Origin: Lota lota
Taxonomy: Eukaryota > Chordata > Actinopteri > Gadiformes > Lotidae
Direction: 5' to 3'
Assembly (NCBI GenBank): GCA_026745465.1
Contig: JACYXH010000429.1
Span: forward strand, 3,388,525-3,452,524
DNA length: 64,000 nt
Position 1 is the stretch's first letter; each line of letters starts with the position of its first letter. The notes under the pieces are model-generated. The model was given only the letters and a program-made list of their open reading frames with translations. It made no database searches and was not told the origin of the DNA. The position numbers and the translations under genes were made by a program. Shown here in pieces: positions 1,138-4,100 of this stretch.

Positions 1138-4100
1138 CTGAAATTAGACACACACACACACACACACACAGGTGGTTTAACACAGTGGCAGTCGAGCAAA
1201 AGCGAAACAATCTTTTTTTATTAACAATTAACAACACGTTTTATGGACGTTGTGTGTGTGGCTTTATGGACAGGTCAGAGAAGACAGACAGGAAGTGGGT
1301 TGAAAGAGAGAGGGAATGACGCATCGGAACAGACAGTGGACGACGGACACCTGGTCGCTATAAGGCGTAGTGCTTGCATGGCAAACAAGCTAGCAGGCTT
1401 GGGTGTGTAAGCTCCCTCATTGGTCTGTGTAGTCAGGCTCCAAAATCTCATTCCAGAAGTATGTCTTTTTACCTGCCAGAGCCGGAAATAGACCGGCCAG
1501 GCCATTGTTTTAATATGTAACCCTGCATTTTAGAACCTGTCAAACGGTGAAATGTATCCGCCCCCGGCAGGTGGCAGGTGTTTATAGTGGACCCTGTGTG
1601 TAGTGCTCTGCCCGTCTGGGCGGTCGGGCCTGTGTTTACCTGATGGGGACGAGCAGGATCATGAGCAAGGGGAACACCATCTTCATGTAGGGTAGGGGGT
1701 ACATCCCGAAGGCACACAGGACCACCAGCTGGATCATCTGGAGCGCCGTGAAGTAGTGGACCTTTCTCTGAGGAACCCGGCGGATGTAGTGGGTGGGGGG
1801 GTAGGACGTCTGGGGGGAGAATTAGGGTGAAGCTGTTGTTAGTCTCACGTTAAAACGTATCGCCATCTCTAGTCTGTCTGTTGCGTGTCTGTATGGGCCT
1901 GCCTGCATGCATGAACTAACCGGTTGGTTGCATTGATTATACACAGACAGAAAGACATACAGAGAGTAGGAAGAGACCGTAGATATAATATATATATAGA
2001 TATATGTAGACATATTGAGAGAGAGAGAGAGATCTCTGTATGTATTTTATCCTGTTTGGTCTTTATCTGCACTCTTCTTTCCATTTTGGTTGCTGGAACA
2101 CCTGCATTTCCCTTCAGGGATTAATAAAGTGTTGATTATCTAGATAGATAGAGACAGTAGGTGGATAGGTACAGAGACCCTAGATAAAGTTGACCGACAG
2201 AGACAGACACAGACAGAGCGATATCCACGTTTCCCATCCGGGATTAATAAAGTATTTTATAAATCCAACACTAATTAAAGAGGGATCTCTCCTACCTGCT
2301 CTTGAGCAGCAGGCCCATGCCATCCACCATCTAACCGGTAATACTTTACAATGCATTAAATAACCATTAATTAACATTTGTTCATGCAGTAATTAACAGT
2401 GAACTAATGGTCTAGTAATCATTCACTAATGGTGTTCATGTTTACTAATGGTGTATACGTTAACTATGGTAATGGTGTTAACTAAGGTATTCATTTATAC
2501 ATTATTTAACAGGGTTAGAAATAGGGTTAACTTTTACCCACTAACCCTACCTAACCCTAACCCCTGTGCTAATGCTATGTAAAAATGTATATTACCGCAT
2601 TTACTAATGTTAATTAATGGTTAATTAATGTACCCTTATTGCAAAGTGTTACCATCTAACCCCACCCTCCATCTACCTGCTCCTTGAGCAGCAGCAGCAT
2701 GTGGTCCACCATCTAACCCCACCCTCCATCTACCTGCTCCTTGAGCAGCAGCAGCATGCCATCCACCATCTAACCCCACCCTCCATCTACCTCCTCCTTG
2801 AGCAGCTGCGCCATGCCATCCACCATCTAACCCCACCCTCCATCTACCTCCTCCTTGAGCAGCTGCGCCATGCCATCCACCATCTAACCCCACCCTCCAT
2901 CTACCTCCTCCTTGAGCAGCTGCGCCATGCCATCCACCATCTAACCCCACCCTCCATCTACCTCCTCCTTGAGCAGCTGCGCAATGCCATCCACCATCTA
3001 ACCCCACCCTCCATCTACCTGCTCCTTGAGCAGCAGCAGCATGCGGTCCACCATCTAACCCCACCCTCCATCTACCTCCTCCTTGAGCAGCAGCAGCATG
3101 CCATCCACCATCTAACCCCACCCTCCATCTACCTCCTCCTTGAGCAGCTGCGCCATGCCATCCACCATCTAACCCCACCCTCCATCTACCTGTTCCTTGA
3201 GCAGCAGCAGCATGCGGTCCACCATCTGGTTGCCGTCCAGGGAGGTGGCAGCGATGTAGAGGAAGAGGCCGTAGAGGACGGGCTTGGGGATCCACTGCAG
3301 TGGGATGGGCAGCATGAACACGGACACACCGATCAGGATGTTGGCCGCCAGGGACGTCAGACGGGTCTCCTTCACGCTGACGATGCTGCGGTGAATATTT
3401 GGTAACCGTACCATATGCAGTGGAAGAGAAATGTGTAATGATGTGAGTAAAATAAATGTGCAATGTGTTCTGAGGTGAGGAGATGGATCAACAAGACAAT
3501 AATAAGGAATTTAAAGAAAACATCTCCATTTGTATGTTCCCCCACTGGAATGTTCATTCAACCCAATTCAAATGGGATGGCAACTTTTTATAATGGTTGC
3601 AACTCGAATTGAGGTCATTTCAATTTGGGTTTTTTTCAGTACAGAATCTCAATGCGTGTTTACAAATCTAAACTCAAACTAATCTTCGTGCAAACTCATT
3701 TAAGGGCAAATTACCCAAATGAGCAATTTTCCCAGCCACGAATGCATTCTGCCAGACTTTAATTAGACATTTACGATAGAAAAATACATAATATATGAAT
3801 ATATGTGAATATACATTTAAATACAACCATCCAATCATTAAAATCTTTTATTAATTTATTGTTCTCCACCCCACTGAACCTACGTGGTGTACAGGTGTCC
3901 ATTCTCTACGTGCTGCTCCACCTTCGCCAGCTGGCGTGCGTGAAGGGAGGAGTGGGGGAAGGCTGCGTGCATCCATGGCAACCCCAGGCACGACATAAGG
4001 ATGTTGATGAGGCCGGTGAGCACCAGGTCCCAGTGGAACGCCGTTCCTTTCAGCAGCCTGTTGGCAGAACCACAATCATTCACACTCATTGGTCGCCACC

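Follow-up and report, generated by a model that had tools for sequence, protein, structure and literature searches.

A minisatellite that gives multiple splice donor sites is said to have been described in IFI6 (6-16/G1P3) by Turri in 1995. The IFI6 repeat unit is ∼ 12 bp. Two downstream units serve as donors and give rise to isoforms (PMC4526556). Human UBC holds a tandem array of dual-specific AGGT splice sites with a unit of 228 nt (PMC10809524), and internal tandem repeats have been described at exon–intron boundaries in human segmental duplications, where some of them alter splicing (PMC2812944). Among fish, the Atlantic cod genome is exceptionally dense in tandem repeats, one in five of which is heterozygous (PMC5241972); the abstract of that study makes no mention of splice-site ladders. 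Our literature search recognized no report of such ladders in fish, which is not proof of their absence. Here we describe a ladder of 5′ splice sites at an exon of slc4a11 in a 64 000-nucleotide stretch of the Lota lota genome (the window, which denotes the whole stretch analysed).

Structure of the slc4a11 ladder

The 3′ part of slc4a11 lies on the minus strand of the window. In our gene model a single open frame runs through its last seven coding exons (6256 to 1071), with one further upstream exon left unplaced. The spliced peptide aligns with the solved SLC4A11 chain 7x1g (E 4e-70 over 142 residues) and runs unbroken through KEQ/T (here and below the slash marks the junction). This alignment supports both the 196-nt exon that carries the ladder and its joining to the next coding exon (Table 1), and with the PF00955 match it upholds the gene and exon named in a preliminary description of this DNA. 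The acceptor had been placed there at 1810; the next exon begins at 1809, with the AG at 1810–1811.

Table 1. Features of the slc4a11 ladder in the window, and splice-site ladders at other loci of the same genome (L, locus; C, contig).
Feature	Position	Strand	Basis or description
Preceding coding exon of slc4a11	3884–4057	−	Gene model; homologous exon in the paralogue starts with a mirror-image acceptor ladder
slc4a11 coding exon, 196 nt	3190–3385	−	HCO3_cotransp PF00955 1.1e-24 on frame 3169–3510; 7x1g alignment; gene model
True 5′ splice site CAG/GTAGAT, first intron base 3189	3181–3192	−	Deduced from protein match
57-bp minisatellite, 10.1 units; every unit holds exon end, donor and 19–26 bp of early intron with G-runs	2651–3227	−	TRF
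Nine decoy donors (3132 ... 2676) in 57-bp steps: six GAG/GTAGAT, three CAG/GTAGAT	2676–3132	−	Unit alignment
MITE-like element, 317 bp, between units 10 and 11	2337–2653	.	Inverted ends and 8-bp duplication
Eleventh, diverged unit, donor CAG/GTAGGA, first intron base 2295	2287–2336	−	Unit alignment
Next coding exon (TSYPPTHY...), common acceptor	1640–1809	−	Spliced peptide and gene model
Last coding exon and stop	1071–1137	−	Gene model
L039, donor ladder			6 CCG/GTGAGT and 7 CAG/GTYART
L024, donor ladder, SLC4-family exon	C17, reverse complement 1864–2730		25 bp × 34.6; 30 exact TACCAG/GTAG; exon end deduced from reading frame
L014, donor ladder			68 bp × 2.3
L019, ladders on both sides			2 donors; acceptors 49 bp × 2.5
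L028, likely donor ladder			40 bp; without called boundary
L061, acceptor ladder, myosin	C702, reverse complement 1295–1511		6 acceptors
L016/L017, acceptor ladders, SLC4 exon	C715, C449		48 bp

The units of the array agree at 94% of positions (TRF), and at an offset of 57 bp 492/520 positions are identical, compared with at most 40% in 1000 shuffles. The donors follow one another in exact 57-bp steps (first intron bases at 3189, 3132, 3075, 3018, 2961, 2904, 2847, 2790, 2733 and 2676), with one more at 2295. AG/GTAGAT is kept in all ten tandem units and AG/GTAGGA in the diverged one, so that AG/GTAG is common to 11/11. The ladder is thus confirmed as it had been reported, including its donor motifs and the derivation of the unit from an exon/intron boundary. 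Two details did not stand. The exon share had been given as 31 nt; by eye it comprises the last ∼ 38 nt of the exon, starting at AGATGGTGG, because the stretch AGATGGTGGA occurs in the exon as well as in the units. The donors had also been counted as ten or eleven consecutive sites: ten do lie at exact 57-bp steps, but the eleventh is not adjacent to them and is set off by the 317-bp element. Downstream of the donor every unit continues with GGAGGGTGGGG, which is identical in 10/10 units. The locus shares with the IFI6 type tandem units of minisatellite length, with a donor in each, across an exon end, and with the UBC type an AG/GT at each unit boundary, at whole-unit spacing (10/10 units).

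The element between units 10 and 11 has inverted ends, GGTAATACTTT and GGTAACACTTT (GGTAAYACTTT), and the 8-bp direct duplication ATCTAACC on either side. Terminal inverted repeats joined to an 8-bp target duplication, which we take to be a mark of hAT, suggest a hAT-type MITE. When the element and one 8-bp duplicate are removed, the spacing of unit 11 falls to 381 − 317 − 8 = 56 bp; unit 11 would therefore once have stood near register, as part of the array before the element inserted. Element-like stretches are also found at 37609–37940 and 47933–48282, neither with a clear target duplication.

Assemblers are known to err in tandem repeats, and the copy number, or the entire array, could in principle be an artefact. 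We consider this the least probable of the explanations discussed here, since the units differ from one another at nine positions, an element with a target duplication interrupts the array, and the contig that bears it (C429) is 6.6 Mb long; the exact number of copies may nonetheless be off. The window contains no N. A two-unit query against the same assembly (575 Mb, 867 contigs) gave at least six matches, all at the slc4a11 locus. Variation in copy number between individuals, which the preliminary description had anticipated, is plausible for this array. Searches of viral and prokaryotic contig collections (viral_contigs, genome_contigs) with the exact 25-base unit pattern gave no match, and the SLC4A11 peptide had no confirmed relative in the viral collection (viral_contigs); both results are uninformative on conservation in fish.

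On the plus strand a 258-codon open frame (2629–3405) runs antisense to the array and the exon. Antisense frames stay open here because the 57-bp unit is a multiple of three, and a Pfam DUF4408 match to this frame (4.3e-07, no stretch passing alone) was set aside as a repeat-driven chance match. Elsewhere in the window, two minus-strand frames with a GDNF/GAS1 domain (41725–42204 and 43605–43949; Pfam 1e-13 and 8.9e-11) probably represent exons of a gene for a GDNF family receptor alpha, and 18595–18842 holds a tandem array whose 32-bp units show a longer period of ∼ 94 bp.

Consequences of decoy use

Reading through into the array leads from every decoy donor (10/10) to the same in-frame VDGGWG-stop, as had been claimed for the later donors. 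The exon, 196 nt long with the true donor, would measure 253–1090 nt with the decoys. The stop lies between 36 nt (first decoy) and 873 nt ahead of the extended exon's own end, and 206–1043 nt upstream of the last coding-exon junction for 10/10 decoys. Since the junction of the last coding exon is downstream, the decoy transcripts are possible substrates of nonsense-mediated decay, and the usual rule on the distance from stop to junction predicts their decay; we regard this fate as probable. By arithmetic from the gene model, a protein made from them would be short of the C-terminal 78 residues.

A decoy splice might also be repaired. As every unit boundary reads AG/GT, the true donor could afterwards be spliced to the AG of the decoy already used, which would give back the exact mRNA, and UBC and other tandem repeats do use such dual-specific sites (PMC10809524). 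As acceptors, the CAG-type units outscore 76% of all AG in the region. With an approximate matrix, however, the CAG types reach only −1.3 and the six GAG decoys −7.3 or −9.7, compared with 0.3 to 8.5 for nine acceptors of the gene. Moreover, an intron of one unit would be 57 nt, below the usual length of vertebrate introns. Correction of this kind is therefore very improbable in slc4a11.

Which donor should win

Donors were scored with a weight matrix of human splice-site frequencies, on which the true donor and the CAG decoys both reach 6.26, the GAG decoys 5.22 and unit 11 8.45; the corresponding energies of U1 pairing are −8.0, −6.6 and −10.7 kcal/mol. The eight donors placed in slc4a11, the true one included, range from 5.68 to 8.90. 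Judged by its own bases, the true donor would be middling and unit 11 the stronger site, a counterpoint to the tolerated by-product that we favour below. The same numbers lend some appeal to a model in which the decoys compete for U1 and for the acceptor, part of the transcripts is lost to nonsense-mediated decay and array length tunes the output of slc4a11: three decoys are identical to the true donor over the nine bases of the splice site, one scores higher, and all ten bring the same premature stop at the distances given above.

Two lines of evidence make such competition unlikely. The first is modelled. A score that combines U1 pairing with local accessibility puts the true donor ahead of the other ten in five of seven fold settings; in the two shortest fold windows it comes second and third. 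The margins are < 1 kcal/mol. The ranking would favour the true donor by small margins and is not proof. In the three CAG decoys of the 57-bp register the last 15 exon nucleotides are predicted to form a hairpin, CUGCUC-AAG-GAGCAG, with a perfect 6-bp stem (−6.7 kcal/mol). The same stretch gives −2.6 kcal/mol in the GAG types, −4.5 in unit 11 and 0.0 at the true exon end, which escapes the hairpin because of an A at −4. When 37 nt are folded the true end is structured too (−5.9 kcal/mol); the GAG types span −4.6 to −8.5, and the CAG types and unit 11 reach −12.6 and −11.6, respectively. Changing the A at −4 of the true exon end to G in silico costs 0.36–0.72 kcal/mol of accessibility. This A is probably ancestral, because the paralogue has the same A.

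The second line is the architecture of the exon. Under exon definition, near-equal competing 5′ sites are reported to resolve toward the upstream one (PMC9225289). Five minigenes of that study carried two identical strong donors and flanking introns of 365 nt; all used the upstream site exclusively, and shorter exons were preferred (PMC9225289). Against the exclusive use of the exon-proximal site in these minigenes, the preliminary claim that the real junction must compete with its neighbours is left unsupported. Two further results from the same source weaken an easy conclusion on first-donor use: when events were taken irrespective of strength, ∼ 60% favoured the downstream 5′ site, which also led in the majority of events of each of the four intron classes, and weakened donors in larger minigenes led mostly to exon skipping (PMC9225289). 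In our gene model the introns that flank the slc4a11 exon measure 498 nt (3386–3883) and 1380 nt (1810–3189), which suggests exon definition. In our analysis this architecture would be a stronger argument for the true donor than the fold and pairing scores.

Variation among the units

The ten units vary in nine columns, all of which lie within the exon-derived part. How surprising this pattern is depends on where that part begins. With 31 nt of exon its chance probability is 0.002–0.004, or 0.02–0.05 when linked changes are grouped; with 38 nt, the reading that we prefer as the right one, it is 0.02–0.03, or 0.08–0.13 when grouped. On the 31-nt reading the invariant intronic part would hint at selection. 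Overall the units do not clearly point to selection on the decoys, and we lean to the view that there is none.

These figures bear on the idea that the array acts as an intronic enhancer, whose additional U1 sites and G-runs, placed after a middling donor, strengthen exon definition. Binding of U1 downstream of the natural donor can indeed promote exon inclusion in PAH intron 11 (PMC5933811), and the invariance of GGAGGGTGGGG after the donor in 10/10 units would fit such a role (p 0.002–0.05 with the 31-nt exon part). The invariance is not significant, however, with a 38-nt exon part and linked changes grouped, and the homologous exon of the paralogue, which has the same GAACAG end, has no array. 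An enhancer role seems doubtful, on a par with competition or a shade less probable.

Ladders elsewhere in the genome

A search of the same genome with the exon found an slc4a11 paralogue (C299:1332701–1332896) with 84% identity across all 196 nt. Its donor, GAACAG/GTGGGC, shares the exon end GAACAG and is followed by no array. At the preceding exon of this paralogue (L008:461–1098, C299) an array of 81 bp × 7.9 presents eight acceptors, CTATAG/GTTACTG, of which the true one is the last, and each of the seven decoys leads to a stop. This acceptor ladder is the mirror image of the slc4a11 donor array.

Searches of the genome with PF00955 (84 matches, 30 loci cut out) and PF00063 (177 matches, 30 loci) led to the further ladders listed in Table 1. 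In the myosin ladder (L061), five copies of the exon's own acceptor, TTAG/GACAACTCC, stand ahead of the exon at 30- and 39-bp steps. Another locus, L018, resembled an acceptor ladder on visual inspection, but its called junction had no copy. The ladder is not special to slc4a11; comparable ones stand at the junctions of other genes. Their unit lengths include 25, 38, 40, 49 and 68, which are not multiples of three, and the 57- and 81-bp units therefore need no frame-based reason. The earlier suggestion that array length tunes expression is unsupported here. The occurrence of comparable ladders in the same genome counts against competition among the decoys, since ladders in other genes would presumably be costly if each lost much transcript.

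One such ladder differs in length between two contigs. The SLC4 exon of L016 and L017 is identical at 261/261 bases on C715 and C449, yet the acceptor arrays hold 5.7 versus 8.7 units and a downstream 20-bp array 11 versus 19. Part of this downstream array holds copies of the exon end with the donor as GC (CTCAAG/GCGAGG). The two contigs resemble a pair of haplotypes, or else copies from a recent duplication. These data support length variation of such ladders in general, and not of the slc4a11 array itself.

We then asked how often repeats cover junctions in 66 loci on the coding strand (36 SLC4, 30 myosin), where 98/132 possible junctions were called, with boundaries chosen by weight matrices of splice-site frequencies. 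A junction was counted when the 24-mer centred on it recurred at least once within 1 kb, with as many as 5 mismatches allowed; one junction and 142 control points were excluded as simple repeats. In the SLC4 loci 9/60 junctions lie in repeats (donors 6/30, acceptors 3/30), compared with 208/1326 random flanking points at the same loci; in the myosin loci, which come largely from clusters of similar genes and are not independent, the figures are 1/37 (donors 0/13, acceptors 1/24) and 39/1172. The SLC4 count includes three duplicate locus pairs, as C715/C449 was counted twice, and becomes 7/54 without the C449 rows L010, L017 and L034; it also contains the donors of L019 and L024 picked one unit too far. 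Some control points near locus ends had < 1 kb to search on one side, and the slc4a11 array of the window and the L008 acceptor ladder are outside the count. In these small numbers the rates are not visibly different, and repeats seem neither to avoid junctions nor to seek them.

Discussion

We think it likely that the slc4a11 ladder is a minisatellite that grew over a splice junction in a genome rich in repeats and is tolerated and largely silent, with the exon-proximal site winning. The main reason for reading it as a tolerated by-product is that the rates of repeats at junctions and in flanking sequence do not visibly differ. The observations behind this reading are the anatomy of the locus, the consequence of the decoys for the reading frame and the comparable ladders elsewhere in the genome.

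From these we infer a growth mechanism, first-donor use, silence of the decoys and neutrality. The process would have started when a segment spanning the end of the slc4a11 exon and its donor was duplicated in tandem, after which slippage of several units at a time or unequal exchange would have enlarged the array. The extra copies lie on the intron side, and splicing from the first donor would discard them together with the intron. The first donor is expected to win because the exon would be recognized across its own length, and at 196 nt it is shorter than any version ending at a decoy (253 to 1090 nt). Occasional use of a decoy would yield the VDGGWG-stop and, probably, nonsense-mediated decay.

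More tentatively, we speculate that minisatellites cross junctions as freely as they do the neighbouring intron, that many genes carry ladders of 2 to ∼ 35 donors or acceptors with length-variable alleles, and that fidelity is kept through the exon-proximal member, the first donor or the last acceptor. We hold this generalization to be a little less probable than its opposite. If it is true, the genome offers a ready-made test of an exon-centric proximity rule, and rare leakage would turn array length into a source of expression variation. Studies of the choice among identical neighbouring sites commonly pit two of them against each other in an artificial gene. The natural genes described here line up many more, with eleven near-identical donors in slc4a11 and about thirty in an SLC4 relative, and in the tandem acceptors of the slc4a11 paralogue and the myosin gene the real site stands at the opposite end. 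Should the small sample prove representative, no obvious purging of ladders takes place, a point of relevance to the growth of introns and to the escape of boundary repeats from selection.

Like IFI6, slc4a11 has a minisatellite that offers several tandem 5′ splice sites at an exon end. It differs in its 57-bp unit, in the ∼ 38 nt of exon that the unit includes and in the stop that each decoy would bring. With UBC it shares an AG/GT per unit boundary and a unit length that is a multiple of three (228 nt in UBC, 57 in slc4a11); the UBC units, however, are coding and are spliced in or out, whereas the slc4a11 copies are intronic and six of the nine decoys in the 57-bp register score poorly as acceptors. 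The human boundary repeats are likewise minisatellites at exon–intron boundaries, but as described they differ among recently duplicated genes and are backed by transcripts (PMC2812944), whereas the slc4a11 array is described from genomic DNA. The kind of structure is thus already known from IFI6 and UBC, and the interest of the present case lies in its apparent spread within one genome and in its unusually clear setting.
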